From: a virus
Length of the DNA stretch: 24,484 nt
Reading direction: 5' to 3' (one strand)
IMG/VR virus record: IMGVR_UViG_3300032278_000114
Span: 1-24,484 of that record
Position 1 is the first letter of the stretch. Every line of letters begins with the position of its first letter. The notes beneath the pieces were generated by a model. It had not been told where the DNA came from and did not search any database. It was given only the letters and a program-made list of their open reading frames with translations. This document shows, piece after piece, positions 1,212 to 20,567 of this stretch. A program made the position numbers and the translations under genes.

Positions 1212-2441
1212 ATGTGGGGAAGCGCTTTGTTGGAAGACGATTATGATGAGATTGTCAAAGACGAAGAAACAGAAGTAGTTTCTCTACCTTTTTTGTTTGA
1301 GAAGGGTGTTTTCGCTAGTAACGGTGATGGTTGGTTTGAGAGTAATTTGGGATGCTCTGCTTCTGATTTCGTAAGGCGATTGAGAAAAGCCCGCCGTTAT
1401 AACAAGGGGGAGAAATCAGAAATAGACAATATCATTTCTGATGTGAGGACCATTAAAAGTCTAGAAGTAGATAGCACATTGAGTATGTTTGATTGGGCTC
1501 AGGATAGAGTTGGTGCTATACATGGTCTCGGTTTAAGCGATAAGAATTTGAAATCGTTGAGGAAGTTCGGGAATATCAGGGAAGTGGGTTTGATTCAGGC
1601 TTGTAATTTATGGGGCAAAGCAGAGAATTCTCTCAAGGCTTTGGATGAATATGAACATGTTTGGGGTATTGAAGAAGAGGGTGCTTGGGCTAAAGCGATG
1701 CAAGAGAGAAGCGATGCTCGTAAGATGTGGAAATCGTCGTTACACCAAATAGACAAGTTATCCTCAAAAGAAAGAGATACCTTAGAGAAATGTTCTTTGT
1801 TGTTACAATCTGGGCCTAGTACATCTAGAAACTTACAAGAGGTAATGCAAGAAGAAGGGGTTCTTTACAAAAGTATGAGCACCGCAAAATTAAGTAAACT
1901 TCTTTCTATGTACGGTGAAGAGTTAGATATTATACAAGGGCCAGAGAAAGGTACTTTTGTAAAAATGAGTAATTCAGGTCTTATCATTAAGAATCCTTGG
2001 CCTTATGCTGCTGGTTTCTTAGATGCAGATGGTTATATCACTATTACAGAAAGAGGTGAACCTCGTGCTGGTTTCATAGCAACTGGGACTCGTGGTAAGG
2101 CACATTGCGAAGAGTTGTACAAGACATTGGATTGTGGTGTCCTTCAGTTAAATCAGAAAGTGTATAAGAATAGCAAACGAAGCCAACATCGCTTACAATT
2201 TTATTCCAAAGCCGATATTAGGAAACTATTAGATGGTATTTTACCCCATTTGAAGATGAAAAACCTACAGGCTAAGGCCGTCCTCGCTTTCATAGATGAA
2301 CCTGATTCCTTGAGGAAATTGGAATTGAAAAGGGTTGTGAGGTTTGAGAACTGGAGAGATGATACAGAGAAATCTTCATCATTGTTACAAGAGTGGGGCG
2401 TAGATATGGATAGCGTCGCTAAATGGTCGGAGGGGTTGTGA
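1212..2441 (+). CDS. LAGLIDADG-type endonuclease-like protein
   Basis: A 409-residue protein. Residues about 262-370 resemble a single-motif LAGLIDADG endonuclease: the motif AAGFLDADGYITI (last Asp before Gly is the expected metal ligand), then beta-rich sequence and the late ILPHLKMKNLQAKAVLAFI helix typical of LAGLIDADG_3-like domains. One motif implies a homodimer. The N-terminal 260 residues are helical and charged and may include a winged-helix-like stretch around 180-255; I do not recognise this part. Start chosen at ATG 1212, six bases after AGGTG (1201-1205); a GTG at 1203 overlaps that box. Its TGA shares a base with the portal ATG, so the two are translationally coupled. It could be a homing endonuclease parked in the packaging module, or a packaging nuclease like the HNH proteins found beside many terminases. 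Confidence 0.6.
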   Translation: MWGSALLEDDYDEIVKDEETEVVSLPFLFEKGVFASNGDGWFESNLGCSASDFVRRLRKARRYNKGEKSEIDNIISDVRTIKSLEVDSTLSMFDWAQDRVGAIHGLGLSDKNLKSLRKFGNIREVGLIQACNLWGKAENSLKALDEYEHVWGIEEEGAWAKAMQERSDARKMWKSSLHQIDKLSSKERDTLEKCSLLLQSGPSTSRNLQEVMQEEGVLYKSMSTAKLSKLLSMYGEELDIIQGPEKGTFVKMSNSGLIIKNPWPYAAGFLDADGYITITERGEPRAGFIATGTRGKAHCEELYKTLDCGVLQLNQKVYKNSKRSQHRLQFYSKADIRKLLDGILPHLKMKNLQAKAVLAFIDEPDSLRKLELKRVVRFENWRDDTEKSSSLLQEWGVDMDSVAKWSEGL

Positions 2442-4240
2442 TGGCAGAAAGTGGTAGTAGAATTACAGATTTTCTTTCAAGTTTGAATCCATTCAAAAAG
2501 CGTACAACACCAGAACCGCAAATGCCTTTGCACACAACAGGTATACAGGAACCTGTTCTAGCACAAGGTATCACTCTACCTGCTCTTTTCGCAATAGCAC
2601 ATGAGAACTTGATTCTACGAACTGTGATTGCGAAGTTAGGACAAGAGATATTTAGAAGAGGGTATTACTGGGAAAAGCAGTTTATGAAGAAATGTGATGA
2701 ATGTGAAGAAGAGTTTCAACATAATGTCGAACAGTGCCCAATGTGTAATTATGAGGTTAGAGACCCTGACCCTGATGAATTATTGTATGCTAGATGGCTT
2801 TTGAAGCAAGAGAACTCTATGGAACAGAGTTTCATACAGATTCTTCATGAAATCGAAAGAGACTTGAATATCGTTGATGACGCTTTCCTTCTTATAATCA
2901 AAGAGTACTATGTTGACCCTGATACTAATGCTCCTGCTTTCTATAGGGTGAAGGAATTAGTACGAGGTGACCCGGTATTCATGCGTATTGTTTCTGATAA
3001 AAGAGGGGTCAGAGGTGGACGATACAAAGTTTGCAGATTGCACAGAGACCAGATTTCTTTTCCGGGGCAAGATGAACCATGTCAGGTTTGTAATTCCGAT
3101 ATGGAAGATGTTCATTATGTGAATATGGCTGGTAGTGGGAAAACACAGTACTATCTTGAAGGTGAAGTTATACATCTCAGTAAGTATAACCCTTCCAGAC
3201 TTTATGGTAGAAGTGCTGTGAATACTATCTGGCGTCAAGCAATGACTCTTACTGCTATGGATAATTACATGTATACTTCTTATCAAAAGAGAAGAAGCCC
3301 AAAAGGTATCATTTCAGTTACTACTGATAATCTTGAGTCTATGAAGTCCTTCTGGAAGTCAGTAGACGAGAAGATGGAGCGTGACCCGCACTATATACCG
3401 AAGGTTGGTATCGAGAGTCAGACTGGACGAGGTGGTGTTAATTGGGTTAAGTTCATGGATACATTAGAGGAAATGCAATACATAGCCGTGCGTGACGAGA
3501 TAAGGAACCGTATTGCTGCTTTCTATGGTGTGTCTAGTGTTTTCATGATGGATACCGGCAAGAGTGGAGGTTTGAATAATGAGGGTATGCAAATTTTGGT
3601 TACCAATCGTGCAGTCGAGTTTGGTCAGAAAATTTACACAGATGTGTTATTTCCTCGTGTGTTGAGGGAAATGAATGTGTTTGATTGGAAATTGACGCTT
3701 TATCCCAATGAGGAAGAAGATGAAATCACTCGACTACGGCGTGATGAAATGGAAGTTAACCTTGCGCAGCGTATGTCTATGCTTGGTTACAAACCTGAAT
3801 TAATGGAAGAAGGTGATAGGGACATCAGGTTCACTTATCGAGAAATGCCTCCAGCGCCGCCCGGAAGTCCACCGCCCGGAATGATGCCACCCGGAGGCGG
3901 AGGAATGATGCCACCCGGAGGAATGATGCCCGGAGGAATGATGCCACCCGGAGGAATGATGTCCGGTCATCCAATGGGACACCCAATGGGTGGTGCTGTG
4001 ATGGGAGGACATACTATGGGGTCTAATAATGCACTTCCGCCTAATTTGATGCCCCCGTCACAGCCCGGTGGTGAAGGTGTGGGAATAAGAAGCCCAAGTG
4101 GACCAGCATCTCCGCAAAATCGTACATCTATGGGTATGGGAAGTCCGTTTTCTACTGTTCAACAAAGAGGCGTAGACCCTTCATTAGCACAGAAAGTAAG
4201 TAGGGCTAAGATGGATTCCAGAAGATTGCGTGGAGCATAA
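2441..4240 (+). CDS. Portal protein with zinc-ribbon-like insertions
   Basis: 599 residues. Forms the dodecameric ring at the unique capsid vertex through which DNA enters and the tail attaches. Portal-like features are the early ENLILRTVIAKLGQEIFRRG helix, the central YNPSRLYGRSAVNTIWRQAM segment, and the YGVSSVFMMDTGKSGGLNNEG helix-turn with a following stem region. Two Cys/His clusters are inserted: C85-x2-C88-x10-C99-x2-C102 and C198-x2-H201-x12-C214-x2-C217, consistent with zinc ribbons. The C-terminus (about 465-580) is low-complexity Pro/Gly/Met. ATG 2441 is chosen because GGAGGGG (2429-2435) sits five bases upstream; an in-frame ATG at 2423 lies before that box. Its position directly after the packaging genes supports the call. 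Confidence 0.85.
   Translation: MAESGSRITDFLSSLNPFKKRTTPEPQMPLHTTGIQEPVLAQGITLPALFAIAHENLILRTVIAKLGQEIFRRGYYWEKQFMKKCDECEEEFQHNVEQCPMCNYEVRDPDPDELLYARWLLKQENSMEQSFIQILHEIERDLNIVDDAFLLIIKEYYVDPDTNAPAFYRVKELVRGDPVFMRIVSDKRGVRGGRYKVCRLHRDQISFPGQDEPCQVCNSDMEDVHYVNMAGSGKTQYYLEGEVIHLSKYNPSRLYGRSAVNTIWRQAMTLTAMDNYMYTSYQKRRSPKGIISVTTDNLESMKSFWKSVDEKMERDPHYIPKVGIESQTGRGGVNWVKFMDTLEEMQYIAVRDEIRNRIAAFYGVSSVFMMDTGKSGGLNNEGMQILVTNRAVEFGQKIYTDVLFPRVLREMNVFDWKLTLYPNEEEDEITRLRRDEMEVNLAQRMSMLGYKPELMEEGDRDIRFTYREMPPAPPGSPPPGMMPPGGGGMMPPGGMMPGGMMPPGGMMSGHPMGHPMGGAVMGGHTMGSNNALPPNLMPPSQPGGEGVGIRSPSGPASPQNRTSMGMGSPFSTVQQRGVDPSLAQKVSRAKMDSRRLRGA
3849..3966 (+). repeat. Pro-Gly-Met coding repeat in portal C-terminus
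   Basis: Imperfect tandem copies of a unit close to CCACCCGGAGGAATGATG encode PPGGMM-type repeats. Unit boundaries vary (some copies lack the CCA), as expected from slippage expansion. The reverse strand reads as a His/Ser-rich open frame (3800-4012) that is only an artefact of this repeat. Confidence 0.8.
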
Positions 4241-5322: not shown

Positions 5323-8300
5323 GTGCGAGAAGACGCCCCTGATGTCTTCATAAGAGAAAGAGATAATCTTCTCAAGTCAATGTTTGATGGTCAAGATGTT
5401 GACCTGAGCGTAGGTAATTATCTGCTTGCCAAAGATAATTTGTTCGCTCATGGTTTTGAACCGGATATTACTTGGAGAGAGAGAACCTGCGATTCCTTCT
5501 CTTATGATATTCTAAAGGCCAATCTCAATGTCGCCTCTGGCTCAGATGCCGAGAAAATGACATTGAGAGAACTCGCTAAGAGATTCCCCGGTCATTTGGT
5601 AGACCATCCTTGGGTTGGTAAAATTCGTAATTTGGTTACAGGTAGTGGTGAAAAACCTGAAGAAGATAGGGACAAGATTGCCCAGCGTATTGCTAATTCT
5701 CATTCTTACAAGCATTCAGTTGAACCATTACCTGATGAGCATTTTGGTAAGCCTCATGAGTTCCCCCTGCATGATATTCACAATCCTCTTAGATTTCAAA
5801 ACGCCATTACTGGTCGTCCTGAAATGATTGAGATGATAAGGAGAAACTTCCTTCCTCGTAATCCGGGTGCGCTTTCTGAGATGCAAGAGGAAATGGAAAG
5901 GGACAAATTAGAACAAGAGCATCTTAGGAAGAAGGGAAGCGTCAATTATCATGGAATAAAGGATGAAGATACTGATGAGAGAGAATGGCCTTTCAGAGCA
6001 CCCTTGAAAGGATTGAAAGAGGCTACTTTACAACATCAACATCAGTTGTATGAAAGAGATTATGATAGATGGGGAAAGAGTGGTAGTGCAAAATCTAAGA
6101 GATTGGACTTAGAAGAAGAATATCCTGATTCTCCTGAAAGAGTGGATTACGAATTGAGAAGGGCTCATTTTGAGGACCGTGCAGATAGATGGGAGAGCGA
6201 TGATGTACAATATGAAAGAGGGGAAGAACCTACTCTTGAAGAACTCATGGCTATGGAAGGTGGTTGGGGTAAGCATGGTGCAGATATTAAACCGAAACCA
6301 AAGGTCCAACACGACCATTTTCTTGGTGATGATGGGTATTTCCTAGGATTAGAGTGGCTTACCCCAGAAGAACGCAGTTTGGTGAGAAGTCACATAGAAG
6401 ATAAGGGGCTACATTCACAAGATGCACAAGAGATAGTACTTCCAGACGGACATATTCTAAGCGCTGGTAGAATAATTGACAACATAAGGGCTCGGTATGC
6501 TCCCGCTGCTCATCACTCTGGTAGGAGTGTAGTGCAGAATATTCCTTCTATGCTACCTCTTGTAGAAGAGGATACTGTACCAGAAGAGACACATCAGCAT
6601 TATGCCTTGAATGATATGTTGCATAATTCTGGATTTGACGAAGATGGTAATTATCATCACAAACGCGGCACATCTATTCACCATCATAAGACATCTGTAG
6701 AGGATTTAGACGATGAAGAGAAAGAGATTTTTCCTACTGGAAAACCATTACCACTTACTTCTTTACACGACACCATAACTGATAATTTGAGGAAGACTCT
6801 TGGGCATGAGAAGAAGTACGAGATGGATTCTAAAGGGGAACCTAAGCCTTGGGATGGTAAAAGTTGGAAAGATGAGGTTACTGGTGAAGATGTAGATTCT
6901 TTCCAAGGTATACCTTATTTGACTTCTGATATGTTGAAGAACATCAAAAAGAGTGACCACTTGAAAGAAGCGATAAGAACTTCTTCTCATGGGAAAAATA
7001 GGATACCTCGTGAAGCAATTCTTTTGGCTATGGGATATGATTCTAATGGAAAGCCAATCAATGTAGGAGAACACCCCTATTTGGGTAAACACCATAATGG
7101 GGTTTTGACAGATGAAAATCTGATGCAACAAATATTAGAATCTGCTAGTAAACGCAGTACTCTTAATCAACAGGGTTTTGATATTCGTAATGAGGATTTG
7201 ACTGGTGGTGTGCTTGGTCCTGAAATAGCAGACTTAACACCTGAAGAAAAAGCCCTGTTCAAAGAGCATTCCAGTGGTCATTTGGAAGGTAGGGCCGCAC
7301 GATGGACGGATGCGTGGAAATTAGGTGGTAGGGGGAGAAACCCTCTTTTGGATATGGAACTAAGACATGATGGGATTTCTAAGCATGATAAGGACACTAA
7401 TACCAATACCAGTATGTTCGGTGTCGAGGATTTAGACAGAGATACCTTCACACCTAATCCTAAGACTGCCGGGGCTTTCAGCCCATTCATCCCTCCTGCT
7501 AGTAATCTTGACACTACTAGGCATAACTTGATTTCTGAATTTGGGCATTCATCATCTAGACCCGGTGAGGAAGCGAGGTCTGTCACCCCTAAGACTAACA
7601 TCTATGCGAGAATGAGTCATCTAATGTCTGGGCCAATGAACAGGATTAGGAAATTATCTCAAAATGCCGTTAATAAGTTGTATGGTTCAAAAGTAAAACC
7701 CACTCATATGCCTCTGTTTCACTCTAATCATATGGATGCCTATGGCCCTTATGGGATGGAACAAAGAACAGTATATCGTGGGAAAAAAGAAGGTGAAGAG
7801 ATTCGTGCTGGAGTGGCACATTTAGGTGAGGAAACCTCAGAAGCATCTGTTGATGCTGATACTCCTAAAGAGGAACAAGAGGAAAAGGAATGGGATGCAA
7901 CTCATGGGGCTTTGGGTGGCGAAGGTAAAGGAGAAGAGGGGTTTGTAGATTACTCTGATGCCTTAGAAGGTGATTTCGTAGAAAGAACGGGTAAGTTGCA
8001 TAAGAATAACCACAGGAGAAACAATGCATTGGCTCATCGAAGGAGAGGGGCTGTTCTTGGTTATGGGAGAGACTTCGATGATAGGGCCCCTAGGATGCTC
8101 TCTTCTCTCGACCCGAAGGGGGAAATAGGAACTGGGCGTTATCCTGTCCCTCATGGGACTGAACAGAGAGATTTTGAGAATATAGACAATTTCTTGCGAT
8201 TGACTGGACATAAGCCTAAGCAAAAGCCCCTTGATGAGAGAAGAGTTAGTGTTAGTGAGGAAGAATGGCACTCTATGTTGGATTATCGAGATAAAATGCA

Positions 8301-11300
8301 AAAGAATGGAGAAGACACATCGCATTTAGATGATATCATAGATGAACTTGAAGAAGAGGTGGAGAGGGCTCACGAGCAAGAAACTGGGGAAGGGGATAAA
8401 CCTAGGTCTGATGTCGCGCATAACTTTGAAAGAAAAATGCACGCCGATTATGAAGCCATAACTCAAATGGCTACAATGATGTTAAGCGAAATGTCAGAAG
8501 AGCAGATTAAAAAGCACTTTGACACTTCTAACGGTAACCAATTCATTGACAATGCCGATATGTTATTCAGAGAAGCCAATAGAGCACTCATGCATTTAGA
8601 CCATTCTGTACACGGTTTGACTACATATGGGGAAGACATAGATAAAGTTGAGAAAACTCCTGTTCAAGAGTTAAAAGGAGAAGAAGGAGAAAGCCCACAT
8701 CTGGACCTTGCTGGGCATATGCGAGAGCACGGTCACCTTGTGACTGAAGAAACGAGTGCTAATGATATACTAGAGATGTTAGGTGTAGGTAATGATAAAC
8801 ACTTATTGGATGCTAAAGAAATAATGCTAAAGTATAGTGAAGAGAAGAAGAAGGCACGAGAAGCAGGGTTATTGCCTGAAACAGACCCTGATTATGAAAG
8901 CGCCCATCAAAAGGCAATATCAAAAGTTGGTAGTAGGGCATATGAGAATGCTAGGATTATCACAGACGGTCATAGTCAATTAGTAGACCAAATCAAGAAC
9001 TATGTTGGTGTACATGGACCTCGTATGATAATGAGCAATGGGCAGTTTATGTCCACTAATCCTTCGATTGATGGTTCAGAAACACCCTTTGAGGATTATC
9101 ATGGTGTGAGGGACATAGACATGTTTGTGGGGGCTCAATTCAAAGGTATGAACAAGAAAGCGAGACAAGCAGGGGCTTGGCGACACACTAATGAATTAGC
9201 AAAGATGTTTAGGGGCCCAGAAGAAGAATACAAAGACATGTATGGTTTAGATTTCATACCAGCACCTATAATCAAAACGGGAGAGAAGGACAAGGTATCT
9301 GGTTTTACTGCTGCTCCAGTTGGAAAAATACCCGGTAAGAGATTTGTGCATCAAGGGAGAACGGCTAACGAGGCAGTACATCGTTTGAGGGATATCGTTC
9401 TTCATGACCCTTCTATGGAGTTACAATTTCAAGAAATCAAAGAACCGATAACAAAAGAGGAACTTCATTGGGGGGACGGAAGGAAAATAGATGGTACTTC
9501 ACCTCATGGACATACTGTTTGTGACCTTGCTGTGAGTGGTGGTTTGGAAGATGGTAGGGTTGGTAAACCTACTTTTGGATTCGATTTCAATGAAGGAAAA
9601 TCCTTCATGGGTGAGAACATAACCAAACCAGTAAGTCTTTTACCTACACCTTTTGATAATTTGTATAGGGCATTCTCCAAAGGATTAGGGGTAGATGGTG
9701 AAAAGATGGTTCAAAGTGCTTGGGATAATCAAGAGCCCAGAGAGCAAATCATCACTCCTTCAAATACTCCTGATATCGAAGGTGTAACTCCTAACACCAC
9801 TCCACCATTCTTTGAAGCATTGAGTTTGAGTGAGCCTTCAGATTACGCTTCATTCTTATTGAATCCTGATGTGCTTTTACTGAAAGGGGACAAGAGCCCT
9901 GAATGGGTTCCTCCAATCAGACCGATGCATAGAATTTTTGAATTGAAGGATTTAGAGCAATTAAGAGGTTTTACTGGTAGTTGGGTAGTATCTAAGTGGT
10001 ACGATGGTCAAAGAATAGTGATAACGAGAAAGAAAAATCGAATTACTGCTTACAATGAGAAAGGGGGGAGAATAGGATTACCTGATTGGGCTCGTAAAGG
10101 TTTGAAGAAAATGAATGATAAGACCTACACTATTGATGGGGTATTAGGTGATGATGAATTACATGTCATTGATATCATGCAATATGACGGCACAGATATT
10201 ATGGATTTATCTGCGAATGAAAGATTAAAAGTTCTAAGAGGTCAATTCGATAGTCATGATACTGTTATGATACCCGGCCCATTCGATACTCGTGTAACAG
10301 ACGAAAACGGTTTAGAGGGAGTTGTTAAGGATTTACTCAAGGATTCTGACACTCTTTTACTGAAGGATTCCAATAGTACTTACATGCGTGGGGAGATTCG
10401 TCATCCTAAATGGATTCTTTTGAGACCCGGAAAAGAATTGAATTTCTTGGTACTAGACAGAAGAGGTAGTGGGCCTTTCACATATCGGTTGGGTGCTGGT
10501 CCTCTTCTCGATGATGAGGGACTAGGTAACAGGGCTGTTAATTACAAGGGGTCTGTTTATCTTGATGCGGGGACTGTGGAAAGTCCAAAGCCTTTTGATG
10601 AGGGTGAAATAATCAGAGTAAATGTGAGTGGTGTGAAGCAATTCAACAAAGGAGGTAGAGACATCTATACCGTCACACCGACAGATGTGAAAGGAGAAGG
10701 AGAAGGAGAAGGGGTAGTGAGTATGGAAACTTTGGGTCTTTTGACTAAATCTCTAGAACCGCTTCATTTCCCTCATGATGTGAAAATCATAGACAATAAC
10801 ATACTTGTGAAGATGTATCACGATAATGTTGTTTACGATTTGGAGAAAACACAAGATGGGTATTGGGCTAGTTCTCCAGAAACGGTACTCTCTAATATTT
10901 CCACTAATGATTATTCCATTCGTCTTAGTGAGAGTTTGAAACCATTCTGGGCTCAAGTGGCATCTATGCTTTTGAAAGGAAAGATAGAAAGGGTTGTGGA
11001 AGAGGATAAGATACCAGATAATACTGAAGAAACTATGGAAGAGGAATCTGCTGGGTTACTAAAACCGGGTAAAGACAAGAATCTCCTGCTGAAACCTGAA
11101 GCGATAAAAGGTCTGAAACTCATAGAAGAGGCGTTGGATATTTTAGAAAAAGAGCAATACTACAACACTACTGGACCTAAAGGGCTAGGCATTGATGTGG
11201 GTTCTCTAACTGAAAGTCCAAGGGGACCAACTAAGTTGGTAGGTGAAGAATCAATGCCTGATTATGATATGCGCGTGAGACCTACTGAAGATTCAGAACG

Positions 11301-11427
11301 GCCATACAAAAGTAAAACTCCGCAAAATAGCGAGGTTAAGGGTAAAAAGAGTAAGAAATTAGTCACAGATGAGGGGCAGTCCCTCGATTTGGAGTTAGAT
11401 TCTAAGGAAGCGGTGTTATCTGACTGA
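5323..11427 (+). CDS. Giant 2034-residue protein with degenerate DNA-ligase-like domain
   Basis: Starts at GTG 5323, eight bases after GAGGTG (5309-5314). Residues 1 to about 1480 are highly charged, His-rich and mostly unrecognised. Residues about 1520-1790 resemble an ATP-dependent DNA ligase nucleotidyltransferase plus OB fold: motif I-like SKWYDGQR (K1558), motif III-like TIDGVL (1604-1608) followed by ELHVIDIMQYDGTDI and an NERLKVL helix, motif IV-like TLLLKDSNSTYMRG (K1681, Y1687), motif V-like KWILLRP (W1697), then an OB-like IIRVNVSGVKQF. Key residues deviate: the motif I Lys is one place too far from the Asp-Gly, the motif III Glu is Val, the motif IV Glu is Asp, and a motif V Lys is Leu. 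Catalysis is therefore doubtful. The C-terminal 240 residues are acidic and repeat-prone. Location between portal and protease suggests a virion-packaged or head-assembly protein. Confidence 0.7.
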   Translation: MREDAPDVFIRERDNLLKSMFDGQDVDLSVGNYLLAKDNLFAHGFEPDITWRERTCDSFSYDILKANLNVASGSDAEKMTLRELAKRFPGHLVDHPWVGKIRNLVTGSGEKPEEDRDKIAQRIANSHSYKHSVEPLPDEHFGKPHEFPLHDIHNPLRFQNAITGRPEMIEMIRRNFLPRNPGALSEMQEEMERDKLEQEHLRKKGSVNYHGIKDEDTDEREWPFRAPLKGLKEATLQHQHQLYERDYDRWGKSGSAKSKRLDLEEEYPDSPERVDYELRRAHFEDRADRWESDDVQYERGEEPTLEELMAMEGGWGKHGADIKPKPKVQHDHFLGDDGYFLGLEWLTPEERSLVRSHIEDKGLHSQDAQEIVLPDGHILSAGRIIDNIRARYAPAAHHSGRSVVQNIPSMLPLVEEDTVPEETHQHYALNDMLHNSGFDEDGNYHHKRGTSIHHHKTSVEDLDDEEKEIFPTGKPLPLTSLHDTITDNLRKTLGHEKKYEMDSKGEPKPWDGKSWKDEVTGEDVDSFQGIPYLTSDMLKNIKKSDHLKEAIRTSSHGKNRIPREAILLAMGYDSNGKPINVGEHPYLGKHHNGVLTDENLMQQILESASKRSTLNQQGFDIRNEDLTGGVLGPEIADLTPEEKALFKEHSSGHLEGRAARWTDAWKLGGRGRNPLLDMELRHDGISKHDKDTNTNTSMFGVEDLDRDTFTPNPKTAGAFSPFIPPASNLDTTRHNLISEFGHSSSRPGEEARSVTPKTNIYARMSHLMSGPMNRIRKLSQNAVNKLYGSKVKPTHMPLFHSNHMDAYGPYGMEQRTVYRGKKEGEEIRAGVAHLGEETSEASVDADTPKEEQEEKEWDATHGALGGEGKGEEGFVDYSDALEGDFVERTGKLHKNNHRRNNALAHRRRGAVLGYGRDFDDRAPRMLSSLDPKGEIGTGRYPVPHGTEQRDFENIDNFLRLTGHKPKQKPLDERRVSVSEEEWHSMLDYRDKMQKNGEDTSHLDDIIDELEEEVERAHEQETGEGDKPRSDVAHNFERKMHADYEAITQMATMMLSEMSEEQIKKHFDTSNGNQFIDNADMLFREANRALMHLDHSVHGLTTYGEDIDKVEKTPVQELKGEEGESPHLDLAGHMREHGHLVTEETSANDILEMLGVGNDKHLLDAKEIMLKYSEEKKKAREAGLLPETDPDYESAHQKAISKVGSRAYENARIITDGHSQLVDQIKNYVGVHGPRMIMSNGQFMSTNPSIDGSETPFEDYHGVRDIDMFVGAQFKGMNKKARQAGAWRHTNELAKMFRGPEEEYKDMYGLDFIPAPIIKTGEKDKVSGFTAAPVGKIPGKRFVHQGRTANEAVHRLRDIVLHDPSMELQFQEIKEPITKEELHWGDGRKIDGTSPHGHTVCDLAVSGGLEDGRVGKPTFGFDFNEGKSFMGENITKPVSLLPTPFDNLYRAFSKGLGVDGEKMVQSAWDNQEPREQIITPSNTPDIEGVTPNTTPPFFEALSLSEPSDYASFLLNPDVLLLKGDKSPEWVPPIRPMHRIFELKDLEQLRGFTGSWVVSKWYDGQRIVITRKKNRITAYNEKGGRIGLPDWARKGLKKMNDKTYTIDGVLGDDELHVIDIMQYDGTDIMDLSANERLKVLRGQFDSHDTVMIPGPFDTRVTDENGLEGVVKDLLKDSDTLLLKDSNSTYMRGEIRHPKWILLRPGKELNFLVLDRRGSGPFTYRLGAGPLLDDEGLGNRAVNYKGSVYLDAGTVESPKPFDEGEIIRVNVSGVKQFNKGGRDIYTVTPTDVKGEGEGEGVVSMETLGLLTKSLEPLHFPHDVKIIDNNILVKMYHDNVVYDLEKTQDGYWASSPETVLSNISTNDYSIRLSESLKPFWAQVASMLLKGKIERVVEEDKIPDNTEETMEEESAGLLKPGKDKNLLLKPEAIKGLKLIEEALDILEKEQYYNTTGPKGLGIDVGSLTESPRGPTKLVGEESMPDYDMRVRPTEDSERPYKSKTPQNSEVKGKKSKKLVTDEGQSLDLELDSKEAVLSD

Positions 11428-11442: not shown

Positions 11443-11471
11443 GTAGTATGAACATTTAGCGAGTGATTAGT

Positions 11472-12833
11472 GTGTTGTCTTCTGTACGCTCTAAACCCGG
11501 TGAACAATCAGTACTGTTATTGAAAGGTGGAGATTTAGTAGTAGCAGGGTACGCAAGTGTAGAAGTAGTAGACAAGCAAGGTGACAAGATAACCAAAGAA
11601 GCACTCAGAGACGCATTTAAGAAATACATGGAGAGTGACAAGTACCGTAATGTACAACTAGCACATTCAAACATACAAATCGGTGAAGTTATACCAAGTT
11701 ATACAGATAGTGAAGGGAGGTTGTGGAAAAGCGAAGTTGATGATGTCGGAATGTTTGTAGTTGTAGAACTGAGAGAAGACATCGAAAAAGCAAAAGAAGT
11801 CGCTGCCGAAATACGAAAAGGCTCGTTAAGAGGATTTAGTATTGGTGGGCAAGCATTCAAGCGTGTTAGAAAGAGCGACAAAGAACACGGCGACTATCAA
11901 GAAATCAGCAAACTGGAACTGCACGAAGTAACAATCTGTGAGAAAGGAATAAACCCGGAAGCGACATTCAAAATTCTAAAAGAGGATAATGGAAAAAATA
12001 AGGTGAATAAAATGGCAGATGAAGATAACGATATTATGACACAGATGGGCGATGTTCTTACTCGCTTGGAGTCTAGGCTTGATGCCTTTGAGAAGGGAGA
12101 TAAACCTGCCTTCTTGGAGGGGAAAGACGATGATGATAAAAAGGACTCAAAGAAGAAAGAGAATATTGAGGAAGAGTTAGTAGAGAAGGGAGAGGAATAC
12201 TCCGATGTAATTACTTCTGAATATCTAAACTGGATGGAAGATACACTAAAGAGCGCGGGTGTAAACACAATAGCCGCAAGAGAACACTTCGATGATGTGG
12301 AGAAGGCTAATCTTGGTTCTACTCCTGAAGAGTTGGCTGACACTGAGGCTGCTAAGGGCGGTCAAGTCAAGGGCAGGGCGCAGGAGGGCGGTAAGCCTTC
12401 CACTAACGCGGTTGCCCGCACGACTGGAAAGGGTAGTTCGACCAAGAAAGGTGAGTTTCTTCACCCTTCAGAGGTGACCCACTCAGATATTGAGGCTGCT
12501 TACGAGGTTTACAAGGCTGCAGCACTAGAGCAGGAGTTTAGGACTGCGCTAGAGCACGAGTTCACAAATCGCTATGGTAGCGAGAGGACAGAAGAGATTT
12601 CCAAGGCAGAGGCTGCTTCTTTCGATGCACGCAGCCCTCTTGACGAGATAAACAAGTCTATCGCTGCTCTTGGTGAGCGCATAGATACACTTGCTAATCC
12701 TACCGAGCCAGAAGTTGGAGAGGCACTACAGAAGTCTGAGGCTACTGTAGAGATACCCTCAACAATGGATTTGGCTGCTATGACTTGGGATGAGGTACAC
12801 CAACTTGCTGACAAGGCATTTAAGGTAGATTGA
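11472..12833 (+). CDS. Prohead protease fused in frame to scaffold
   Basis: 453 codons from GTG 11472, five bases after GAGTGA (11461-11466); an in-frame GTG at 11463 overlaps that box. Residues 1 to about 178 match a prohead protease of the S78 / XkdF-like type: VVAGYASVEVVDKQGDKI, catalytic-type His in QLAHSN (H65), and a Ser in GSLRGFSIGGQA (S123 or S118), then ELHEVTICEKGINPEA. The remainder is acidic, helical and charged like a scaffolding protein, ending in MTWDEVHQLADKAF. The protease matures the procapsid by cutting scaffold and capsid. At the junction an internal ribosome binding site and ATG lie in frame, and glutamate codon use changes abruptly, so this looks like two genes sharing one frame. 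The capsid gene follows 35 bases later. Confidence 0.82.
   Translation: MLSSVRSKPGEQSVLLLKGGDLVVAGYASVEVVDKQGDKITKEALRDAFKKYMESDKYRNVQLAHSNIQIGEVIPSYTDSEGRLWKSEVDDVGMFVVVELREDIEKAKEVAAEIRKGSLRGFSIGGQAFKRVRKSDKEHGDYQEISKLELHEVTICEKGINPEATFKILKEDNGKNKVNKMADEDNDIMTQMGDVLTRLESRLDAFEKGDKPAFLEGKDDDDKKDSKKKENIEEELVEKGEEYSDVITSEYLNWMEDTLKSAGVNTIAAREHFDDVEKANLGSTPEELADTEAAKGGQVKGRAQEGGKPSTNAVARTTGKGSSTKKGEFLHPSEVTHSDIEAAYEVYKAAALEQEFRTALEHEFTNRYGSERTEEISKAEAASFDARSPLDEINKSIAALGERIDTLANPTEPEVGEALQKSEATVEIPSTMDLAAMTWDEVHQLADKAFKVD
12000..12006 (+). promoter_or_regulatory. Internal ribosome binding site for nested scaffold
   Basis: AAGGTGA lies inside the protease-scaffold frame, five bases before the in-frame ATG at 12012. 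The local text (AAGGTGAATAAAATGGCA) looks like the intergenic leaders elsewhere in the window, such as the one before the capsid gene, rather than like coding sequence. Confidence 0.6.
12012..12833 (+). CDS. Nested in-frame scaffolding protein
   Basis: Internal start at ATG 12012 would give a 273-residue protein sharing the C-terminal part of the protease frame. It begins MADEDNDIMTQMGDVLTRLE, is rich in Asp, Glu and Lys with a KGDDDKKDSKKKE-like linker region, then long helices, and ends in a conserved-looking MTWDEVHQLADKAF tail. This is the arrangement of lambda C/Nu3, where scaffold is translated from within the protease gene. Scaffold ends often bind capsid subunits. Sequence shows the start and the SD; the scaffold role is inferred from composition and position just before the capsid gene. 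Confidence 0.6.
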   Translation: MADEDNDIMTQMGDVLTRLESRLDAFEKGDKPAFLEGKDDDDKKDSKKKENIEEELVEKGEEYSDVITSEYLNWMEDTLKSAGVNTIAAREHFDDVEKANLGSTPEELADTEAAKGGQVKGRAQEGGKPSTNAVARTTGKGSSTKKGEFLHPSEVTHSDIEAAYEVYKAAALEQEFRTALEHEFTNRYGSERTEEISKAEAASFDARSPLDEINKSIAALGERIDTLANPTEPEVGEALQKSEATVEIPSTMDLAAMTWDEVHQLADKAFKVD

Positions 12834-12868: not shown

Positions 12869-14005
12869 ATGGCAAGAAATTACATACGCACGATTACAGA
12901 TATGGAGCGCTATTACTATGGCGCTGGAAATGCAATGGGTTACTCGTACTCCGGTAGTGAACTACTGAAGGCCGACGCCCCAATGCTCTCAACTACTGCA
13001 GGAACTTATCAGGCGATTTATGGCCGCAAGGTCTGGTCGCAACTGAATCAGGAGTTCAACGCTTTCAGCATACTACCCAAGAAGCCTTGGGACAGGAGTG
13101 GATGGCGAGTTGTCACAGCCAAGCCCAATTCGGGTACTCTACATGGCGGAGTTGCTGAGAACGCAACCCTGCCTGAGACGGTCAAGCCGACTTTCCAGCA
13201 TGTGGCTGCAAAGCCCAAGACGATTGCTCACACCTTCGATATGTCGGAGACAGCAATCTTCCTCGCTGACAAGGACGATGGACTTGGAGACATTCGACAG
13301 GTTCTCAAAGAGGAAATGGGTAAGCACCACGCTGAGATGGTCAATAAGATGCTACTAACCGATGTAGGGACTGTATCAGCAAATAACTTTGAGTCCCTAG
13401 ACAGGATTACTGCAGGTAACACGAACATGACATACGGCGGTGGTGGTTCTGACCACGCTGCTGCTGGTGAAGAGGATATTTACTCGATTGACCGAAGCGC
13501 TAACACTTGGTCCTACGCCGAGGATAACGCTGCTGCGGCAAATCGCACATTGTCTCTAGACCAACTTGATGACTTGTTCCAGAAGATTTGGGTCCGTGGT
13601 GGAAACCCGAAGGTCATTCTAACGAAGTATGACACTCTGATGAGGCTACAGCAACTACTGCAGAGCCAGCAGAGGTTCATGGAAGAAAAGAGGGTCACTC
13701 CCACCTACAACGGTGTGAAGGGTGTGCCGGGTATGGAGGCAGGGTTCATCGTGGCAACTTACAATGGTGTCCCAATCATTCCGACCAAGGACATGCCAGC
13801 AGACGGACTCGGTAGACTATACTACCTAGACACCGACTACATACACTTCAGCACAGCGATACCGACACAATACTTTGAGTCGGGAATCGAGACTGGCGAC
13901 CCGTTCGCCATCAACAGACTGGGCCAAGAGGGACTGTACCGAACCATGGGTGAGGTATGGACGACTTTCTTTGGGGCTCAAGGGAGTATCCGTGACCTGA
14001 GTTGA
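12869..14005 (+). CDS. Major capsid protein (HK97-like fold expected)
   Basis: 378 residues. Builds the icosahedral shell. The call rests on position right after protease and scaffold, length typical of phage capsid proteins, and content: an N-terminal arm with GYSYSGSELLKADAPMLST, a W/K-rich SILPKKPWDRSGWRV region, a long helix around LGDIRQVLKEEMGKHHAEMVNK like the HK97 spine helix, and late AGFIVATYNGVPIIPTKDMP and FESGIETGDPFAINRLGQEG strands typical of P- and A-domain ends. Codon use is markedly C/G-ending compared with neighbours (lysine about 17 AAG to 1 AAA by my count), as expected for a very highly expressed protein. A maturation cut after LLK34 is possible but unproven. Confidence 0.85.
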   Translation: MARNYIRTITDMERYYYGAGNAMGYSYSGSELLKADAPMLSTTAGTYQAIYGRKVWSQLNQEFNAFSILPKKPWDRSGWRVVTAKPNSGTLHGGVAENATLPETVKPTFQHVAAKPKTIAHTFDMSETAIFLADKDDGLGDIRQVLKEEMGKHHAEMVNKMLLTDVGTVSANNFESLDRITAGNTNMTYGGGGSDHAAAGEEDIYSIDRSANTWSYAEDNAAAANRTLSLDQLDDLFQKIWVRGGNPKVILTKYDTLMRLQQLLQSQQRFMEEKRVTPTYNGVKGVPGMEAGFIVATYNGVPIIPTKDMPADGLGRLYYLDTDYIHFSTAIPTQYFESGIETGDPFAINRLGQEGLYRTMGEVWTTFFGAQGSIRDLS

Positions 14006-18563: not shown

Positions 18564-20567
18564 ATGCCGCCATCAACAGTCTACAAGGGTGATTTAACAG
18601 AAGTTACTTTCGGTCACGAAAGCGGTATGGATTTGACGGATAATTATGGAAGTTCATTTCATTTCATAGCAAAAGCAGATGTTAGTTGGCCTAATATTGA
18701 CACGAGTATAATCACCTTTAGTGGTGGGGCTTCTGGCTCTCCGGTAAATAGTGGTGTACTGAATTATCCTACTGGTATGTTGGTAGGTTCTAGATTGGTC
18801 TTCTCTGGAATCACAAGTGATTTCCTTCCGGCTGATAATCATTCTAATGGTGGACCTTCGTATACTATTGTGAAGCATGTGGTTGTTGGTGGGGCAACTG
18901 AACTAACCATCAGTCCTGCTTTGAAAACGGACCATAGTAGCGCGGTTACTTCTACTAATGGGACATTGCATATCCTTCCTTACAAGACCCCTTCGATGGA
19001 TACGGGTATGGTGTATCATGCAAATGCCAATGAGTCTGGTGAGAGGGTTCTCACGGACCAATTCGTTGGACTGGTAGGCACTATTGCCCTTCCTGAGACG
19101 ACTGTGGACCTCAAGCGCTACCATGTTGTAGGTCTTGGTCGTGATGTTGCGGTACAGGTTCCCGGTAGGTTCCTCAACCAAGGTGGCTCTTTTGAGACGA
19201 ATCTGCATAACTCTCGTTGGTTCTATTACGCACTTGGTCATGAAGTCACGAGTGTGGGTACACCTCAAGACGCACATGCTACTGAAACTTACCGCCTTAA
19301 TGCGGATATATCGGCTGGTGACAGTTCATTCACATACGATTCAAGTGGTAATACTGCTCCTGCTCTTGATGGTGTAGATATAGGACCGGGGGATAACATT
19401 GTCTTGATAGAAACAAACACCACAGATATCAATGTGCACAGAGAGACCACTAGTGATGGCACATGGCCGACTGTGACTTCTCAAGGTATCATAAGTAAGG
19501 CAATAAAGCAAGAAACTCGCCGTGTAGTTGCTATAACATCGTCTGGGTCACCGAATGTCGGGAGAATTTGGGTAGATGACCCTTTCAATTTCTCACATGC
19601 TGATAATATTGTAGTTGAGTTTGTTAGATTTGAAGACTCTTCACAGCGTGGTAGTCCACATATGTCTACCTCAACTGCTTCTTATGGGACTATCTCAAAT
19701 CCAACAAAACGCCTTCTCTTCTCTCGTACAACGGTTCCTTCATTCGCTATGGAAGTGAGTATCAGGAGAAACGACTCTGATTCTGGTGTTTTGACTACTG
19801 AGGTTACGGATGGTGGCCCTTCTGACTCAAAGCAACTCACTCGTATGTTCAGAGGTTGCAAAGTGAAGGACTGGTCTCTTACTGCTGATACCGATGCTGC
19901 AGTTCGCATGACTGTGAACTTCGATGCTGCTCTTTGCTATACCGATACAGGTAGGTTAGAAGGTACTGCTAATGATGGAGATAGATATGACTGTCATCGG
20001 TTGTTTGAGGACACAGCGCATAATGAGACGGCTAGAAAGGTGTCTGGTATAGCCAAGAGGACTCAGAAACCCTTCATGTTCTACAATGGGACAATGCAAG
20101 TAGGGGGGGTTACTATTGGGCAGGTTGTGAGTTTCACTTTGAACGGTTCTACTGGTGTAGAGCAGTACTATACGATAACAGGTGCTAATGTACCGGATTC
20201 CGCTACTGACCAAGTTCCGTTTGCTGGGACTAGGAATCCCGCTATTGCTGTAGAGGGCAAGACAGAGTACGACCTTGAGATGGAAATCATTGTTGATGAC
20301 CCCCTGTTCTATCACAAGATGCGTAGAGCAGTAGACCATTTCGATGATGATACGAGTGATACAACAGATGCTGATATGATTCGCCTTTCTTTCACCAAAC
20401 AGGGTACAGGTGCTACAAGGGAGACTATGGATATAGTCATGGATGATTACTTCATCGTGGAGGCCCCCTTACCCATACCTGAAGACAAGGGACCAATCAG
20501 GAGCACATTGAAGATTCTACCTAAGTCTGTTAGAGTGGTTGCGGTAGACACACTATTACATTCATGA
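18564..20567 (+). CDS. Major tail tube protein, oversized
   Basis: 667 residues from ATG 18564, after GAGGTGA (18551-18557). Opens with GDLTEVTFGHESGMDLTDNY, and has DLKRYHVVGLGRDVAVQVPG and FLNQGGSFETNLHNSRWFYY, then late KVKDWSLTADTDAAVRMTVN, GTMQVGGVTIGQVVSFTLNG and EYDLEMEIIVDDPLFYHKM. These describe a beta-barrel unit of a tail tube fold, with the 'gGsie..l' loop and a paired 'sftl..n' strand. Usual tail tube proteins are 150-350 residues; here additional beta-rich stretches are inserted (about 35-130 and 235-360). Position between terminator and tail chaperones is exactly that of the tube gene. Probably polymerises around the tape measure. Confidence 0.7.
   Translation: MPPSTVYKGDLTEVTFGHESGMDLTDNYGSSFHFIAKADVSWPNIDTSIITFSGGASGSPVNSGVLNYPTGMLVGSRLVFSGITSDFLPADNHSNGGPSYTIVKHVVVGGATELTISPALKTDHSSAVTSTNGTLHILPYKTPSMDTGMVYHANANESGERVLTDQFVGLVGTIALPETTVDLKRYHVVGLGRDVAVQVPGRFLNQGGSFETNLHNSRWFYYALGHEVTSVGTPQDAHATETYRLNADISAGDSSFTYDSSGNTAPALDGVDIGPGDNIVLIETNTTDINVHRETTSDGTWPTVTSQGIISKAIKQETRRVVAITSSGSPNVGRIWVDDPFNFSHADNIVVEFVRFEDSSQRGSPHMSTSTASYGTISNPTKRLLFSRTTVPSFAMEVSIRRNDSDSGVLTTEVTDGGPSDSKQLTRMFRGCKVKDWSLTADTDAAVRMTVNFDAALCYTDTGRLEGTANDGDRYDCHRLFEDTAHNETARKVSGIAKRTQKPFMFYNGTMQVGGVTIGQVVSFTLNGSTGVEQYYTITGANVPDSATDQVPFAGTRNPAIAVEGKTEYDLEMEIIVDDPLFYHKMRRAVDHFDDDTSDTTDADMIRLSFTKQGTGATRETMDIVMDDYFIVEAPLPIPEDKGPIRSTLKILPKSVRVVAVDTLLHS

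Follow-up and report, generated by a model that had tools for sequence, protein, structure and literature searches.

The stretch of viral DNA examined here (the window; all 24,484 nucleotides of it, positions 1 to 24,484 of the IMG/VR record IMGVR_UViG_3300032278_000114) carries a recognizable set of virion genes. A portal protein (2423..4240, + strand; PF04860, 1.2e-10; phrog_18178, 1.1e-58), a prohead protease of the S78 type (11463..12833, + strand; PF04586, 7.2e-11) and a major capsid protein, or MCP (12869..14005, + strand; phrog_24667, 7.4e-56), were identified by profile matches, and the last of these is 71-83% identical to the MCPs of related viruses. The large subunit of the terminase lies at 1-1137 and is cut by the start of the contig, such that its frame is open from base 1 and phrog_38 is matched only from position 385 onwards. 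Between it and the portal gene is a 412-aa homing-endonuclease-like ORF (1203-2441; phrog_5046 HNH endonuclease, 2.2e-6, and a weak LAGLIDADG match), and an HNH endonuclease occupies the matching position in the haloarchaeal virus HVTV-2. Further downstream, at 18564-20567, a 667-aa protein gives a weak match to a tail-tube family (PF18906, 0.0011) and is long for a tube protein.

A single very large ORF with a GTG start, encoding 2034 aa (5323..11427, + strand), lies between the portal and the protease, and ORFs of ~1800-2085 aa are found at the same place in relatives. Its N-terminal ~1507 residues (5323..9843, +) diverge rapidly, with 12-25% identity to 20 relatives over a region in which no domain was recognized. 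This is followed on the same strand by a nucleotidyltransferase (NTase) fold of the kind that carries out adenylylation in DNA ligases (residues 1528-1701; 9904..10425), an OB fold (residues 1702-1795; 10426..10707), an additional segment consisting of a strand and a helix in the structure model (residues 1819-1884; 10777..10974) and a C-terminal tail with the conserved pattern TG..GLG.D...ESPRGPT...PD in the family alignment (11170..11268). The original prediction, which drew attention to a degenerate ligase-like domain in this protein, listed a series of landmarks that are all present and in the order expected of a ligase: SKWYDGQR, TIDGVL, HVIDIMQYDG, NERLKVL, LLLKDSNSTYMRG and KWILLRP.

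Relatives of the giant protein were collected from IMG/VR both through the domain and through the capsid protein. The order portal, small ORFs, giant, prohead protease and capsid recurs in 111 related loci, in agreement with the predicted location of the gene between portal and protease. The portal lies within 2.5 kb upstream in 82 of the 83 loci that have room upstream, and the protease begins cleanly after the giant in 93 of the 102 that have room downstream; in the nine exceptions listed, the open frame of the protease overlaps the end of the giant by ~60 bases and the order is unchanged. When loci were recovered through the MCP (80 loci), the domain was carried by every one of the 70 that had room upstream of the protease. 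Pairwise identities of the module and of the MCP are correlated (Spearman 0.87 over 52 loci, the pairs not being independent of each other). We conclude with considerable confidence that the giant is a protein of the head module, and its gene order suggests that it is present in the virus head.

The evidence for a ligase fold grows with the number of relatives that are taken into account. For the domain of the window alone, the match to PF01068 (DNA_ligase_A_M) is weak (E 2.4e-4, 21.3 bits, against a cut-off of 26.2), so that the ligase claim based on this one sequence is suggestive only, and it becomes firm when relatives are added. Two of these exceed the curated cut-off (3.5e-7, 30.5 bits for locus L009; 5.2e-6, 26.7 bits for locus L017), and searches of the PDB with profiles made from relatives rank archaeal DNA ligases first (4eq5, at 1.5e-6 and 6.3e-6). 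A first AlphaFold2 model, based on 10 sequences, had a mean pLDDT of 47 with a core at 70-83, and that core already matched ligases (VIA Z 15.6). It was replaced by a model of the stretch 9844-11424 with 60 relatives in the alignment, for which the mean pLDDT is 79 and reaches ~90 across the NTase and OB folds, including the OB strands that follow motif V (model positions 198-285). VIA-align superimposes this second model on the ATP-dependent ligase of Pyrococcus furiosus (2cfm) with Z 22.0 over 273 residues at an rmsd of 3.9, the match extending from model positions 17-311 to chain positions 216-561 and thus covering both the NTase and OB folds; the values for other ligases are 20.7 (T. sibiricus) and 18-21 (human ligases). 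Foldseek likewise returns archaeal ligases, with an E of 3.2e-14 to 6wbo. As modelled, residues ~1528-1795 (nt 9904-10707) are folded as the NTase and OB pair of an archaeal-type ATP-dependent DNA ligase, both folds being recognized because of the VIA-align and Foldseek matches. The fold that had been proposed is therefore borne out by family profiles, model, overlay and structure search, and we are as good as certain that it is derived from a ligase. Chance similarity to ligases was considered and is ruled out by the combined fold and profile evidence. Among viral proteins in the BFVD, the best structural match by far is A0A516LT18 (827 aa, E 4.3e-26, 25% identity), which is possibly a shorter or partial homologue.

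The resemblance to the archaeal ATP-dependent ligases (2cfm, the Thermococcus enzymes 4eq5, 6wbo and 3rr5, and A. fulgidus 3gde) includes the NTase and OB folds, the order of the motifs and the pattern [S/T]xY..G.R...W between motifs IV and V. Unlike these enzymes, the module is located inside a head-module protein of 2000 aa, lacks the N-terminal DNA-binding domain and the nucleophilic Lys, and has replacements of the catalytic residues of motifs Ia, III, IV and V. A Pfam search of 21 N-terminal regions, with matches accepted up to E 1, did not return DNA_ligase_A_N. Small viral and bacterial ligases may do without this N-terminal domain.

The loss of catalytic residues is a property of the family rather than of the window. 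The collected sequences were aligned to the family profile (118-121 distinct rows), and columns were assigned to ligase motifs from HMMER alignments, the roles of the residues being those in human LIG1. In the motif I remnant, SKWYDGQR (residues 1557-1564; 9991..10014, +), the position of the catalytic Lys is occupied by Trp1559, with Lys1558 immediately before it, as the original prediction had noted. Over 118 sequences this column is W in 76, Y in 24, F in 10 and I in 8, and never K; none of KYDG, KLDG, KWDG and KFDG occurs in any row of the family alignment, and the Asp of motif I is D in fewer than half of the rows. The column of the motif Ia Arg, which contacts DNA and phosphate in active ligases, is E, A, T, S, V, G, D or I and never R. 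In TIDGV (10129..10143, +) the Glu of the ligase xGE motif is replaced by I, V or L in 118 of 118 sequences. The motif III remnant VIDIMQYDG (10165..10191, +) retains an invariant Asp1617 and has I, V, L, M or S in the column of the Phe. In the region from motif IV to motif V (10348..10425, +), the motif IV Glu is kept in only 14 of ~120 sequences, the motif IV Lys is changed to Arg in 116, and the two motif V lysines are replaced by L/V/M and by R/S/T/D/N, respectively. Judged from these tallies, which confirm across 118-121 distinct sequences the replacements first noticed in one, the family is catalytically dead, and we hold with great confidence that it has no ligase activity.

An active ligase was therefore rejected on the residue tallies, and a variant of that idea, in which the nucleophile has been relocated to a lysine such as Lys1558 or Lys1696, is hardly credible. 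The fold is the right one for it and Lys1696 is invariant; Lys1558, on the other hand, is found in 56 of 118 sequences and is otherwise L, S, A, H, I, V or R, and a moved nucleophile would still have to operate with the motif Ia Arg, the xGE Glu, the motif III Phe, the motif IV Glu and the motif V lysines replaced or unconserved.

The absence of catalytic residues does not reflect decay of the gene, as a pseudogene is ruled out by the open frames of 1800-2085 aa and by low dN/dS. In ten pairs with measurable divergence, dN/dS is 0.00-0.10 for the NTase module and 0.10-0.39 for the N-terminal part, some of the synonymous distances being saturated. The hairpin TYMxGExRHPKW, situated between motifs IV and V, stands out among the invariant or nearly invariant elements, which further include MHRIF, LRGF.G.W, D1617, R1634 and R1639. 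Low dN/dS together with these conserved residues indicates that the module is maintained for a function other than ligation. Two parts of the original description are affected by these results. The term "degenerate" is apt with regard to the lost catalytic residues, but it does not describe a one-off degenerate copy, since purifying selection on the module is strong; and the statement that this is not a standard head gene has to be reversed, because a module that is conserved under purifying selection and keeps its place in the gene order of almost all relatives checked represents a standard head gene of this group of viruses.

The distribution of conserved residues also bears on what the module might bind. 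Conservation peaks in the hairpin, and all of the canonical residues of the ATP pocket are replaced or unconserved, so that the sensing of ATP, which had been offered as one possible role, is disfavoured. A related possibility is a sensor of nucleotides or caps like snurportin-1, whose m3G-cap-binding domain (PF21974) is a guanylyltransferase-like, catalytically dead nucleotidyltransferase fold that is used for binding. The domain of one relative (L016:8998-10035) matches PF21974 at 6.4e-6 and 26.7 bits, just under the cut-off of 27, and fits that family better than it fits the ligase family (0.0046); in addition, the snurportin chain 3nby_B appeared among the Foldseek matches of the first model. 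We nevertheless consider a cap sensor very unlikely. The sub-threshold match is confined to that one relative, and the window itself gives only 0.095 and 13.1 bits; the pocket positions are replaced or variable throughout the family, the cap-binding residues of snurportin-1 being unconserved, and the aromatic residue at 1621 is not kept (Y in 66 sequences and mostly T, A, S, C or I otherwise).

As the best explanation, with about an even chance of being correct, we propose that a pseudo-ligase has been retained in the giant head protein as a module for binding or assembly that has no catalytic role. The NTase and OB pair, without an N-terminal DNA-binding domain or catalytic residues, would constitute the C-terminal module of a giant protein of head morphogenesis that is incorporated into the procapsid close to the portal. 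The pair would neither adenylylate nor seal DNA and would, by means of the TYMxGExRHPKW hairpin, hold either duplex DNA (a packaged or incoming end) or a partner protein of the head. That DNA specifically is gripped is a more tentative proposal, to which we give clearly less than even weight: ligase ancestry and a conserved basic hairpin speak for it, and a near-neutral to acidic domain and the loss of the motif Ia Arg speak against it. The invariant Glu, Arg, His and Lys of the hairpin may also have been turned to new chemistry. The most far-reaching version, in which the dead NTase and OB pair is a structural clamp that holds the genome near the portal or the hairpin is a new active site and, in addition, there is no such enzyme as the "virus-encoded ligase" of this abundant group of ocean viruses, is possible though rather doubtful as a whole.

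The main rival to a binding or assembly module of this kind is one devoted purely to assembly, in which the NTase and OB folds form no more than a rigid scaffold for docking to the portal, the protease or the capsid proteins and DNA is not a ligand. The location of the gene beside those for portal, protease and MCP, the co-inheritance with the MCP and the net charge of the NTase region, which averages -4 over 60 relatives, are all in keeping with such a scaffold, but the most conserved surface element is the hairpin, with a charge of +3, and the matching hairpin of ligases, between motifs IV and V, is close to the phosphates of DNA and AMP. We regard pure assembly as unlikely, if the strongest of the competing explanations.

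A different fate for the protein is suggested by the haloarchaeal Druskaviridae (HVTV-1/2 and HCTV-1/5), which contain the nearest named records for both MCP and portal, at ~27-33% identity. Their gap between portal and protease is also occupied by large proteins with enzyme-like domains, namely the product of a MuF-like gene and a protein of 1313 aa with annotated zeta-toxin and ADP-ribosyltransferase domains, annotations that the giant does not share. By analogy, the giant might be packaged and delivered with the genome; contact with the host would then be made by its N-terminal part, and the pseudo-ligase would hold the DNA as it enters or disturb the DNA ends of the host. Compared with the MCP, the N-terminal part has diverged far more quickly, but its dN/dS is still well below 1 and the giant has no detectable homology to the Druskaviridae head genes. 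Comparison of the N-terminal region with HVTV-2 gp113, gp114 and gp115 by hhalign gave no match; 21 N-terminal regions searched in Pfam at E up to 1 gave no credible match, nor did the N-terminal region in PHROG, and in these sequence and profile comparisons no likeness to MuF or SPP1 gp7 was found. The whole protein compared with PADLOC gave nothing credible. Injection is accordingly an improbable explanation, well behind that of a binding or assembly module built into the head.

The pseudo-ligase might have consequences for the annotation of a known group of viruses. All 12 of the long relatives encode a Cpn60-type chaperonin and 11 of the 12 a PolB, and one further relative encodes TFIIB and a clamp-loader-like AAA ATPase. 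When compared with the traits of the Magrovirales (marine archaeal tailed viruses of ~90-110 kb with PolB, chaperonin, TFB, a clamp loader and a halovirus-related MCP), these viruses look like magroviruses, and their gene content fits that of the magroviruses of Poseidoniales described in the literature (PMC5332604, PMC10768690, PMC12999244). A DNA ligase has been reported for almost all magrovirus vOTUs (PMC10160649), two ICTV profiles count an ATP-dependent DNA ligase among the replisome components, and in a Group A magrovirus the "ATP-dependent DNA ligase" adjoins the prohead protease (PMC7318539).

The giant ORF is the sole PF01068 match in twelve contigs of 80-108 kb, and no match to the NAD and RNA ligase families (PF01653, PF09414) was found in fourteen contigs; PF01068 is blind to several contigs of a far clade, which have no match at all and whose apparent lack of a ligase says little. 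One contig (G010, 107,632 bp) carries a terminal repeat of 75 bp, which suggests that it is a complete genome; in this contig the giant was the only hit both of a scan for the KxDG motif and of a phmmer search with a fragment of an archaeal ligase. It is thus likely that the published calls of a magrovirus ligase refer to the gene of the giant, the "ATP-dependent DNA ligase" of these reports (PMC10160649, PMC10768690, PMC12999244, PMC7318539) probably being the same gene next to the prohead protease. The published protein is counted as an enzyme of the replisome, whereas the giant belongs to the head module and is without catalytic residues.

Magroviruses have been described as needing few host factors, in part on account of their ATP-dependent DNA ligase (PMC10768690, PMC12999244, PMC10160649). 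If the published ligase is a dead protein of the head module, the virus must use the ligase of its host and the annotation should change. What we have here is a pseudoenzyme whose fold is well known and whose setting is unusual, together with a probable annotation error that is of some consequence, and the recruitment of a conserved pseudo-ligase into virion assembly would be an unusual case. No description of an inactive ligase in a head protein was found in the literature searched, the coverage of which was incomplete, and a scan of 84,980 GTDB genomes by short peptide patterns found no cellular or provirus copies. Large ORFs in the contigs of relatives include frames of 3686 aa (L041:8931-19991) and 2501 aa (L045:26-7531).
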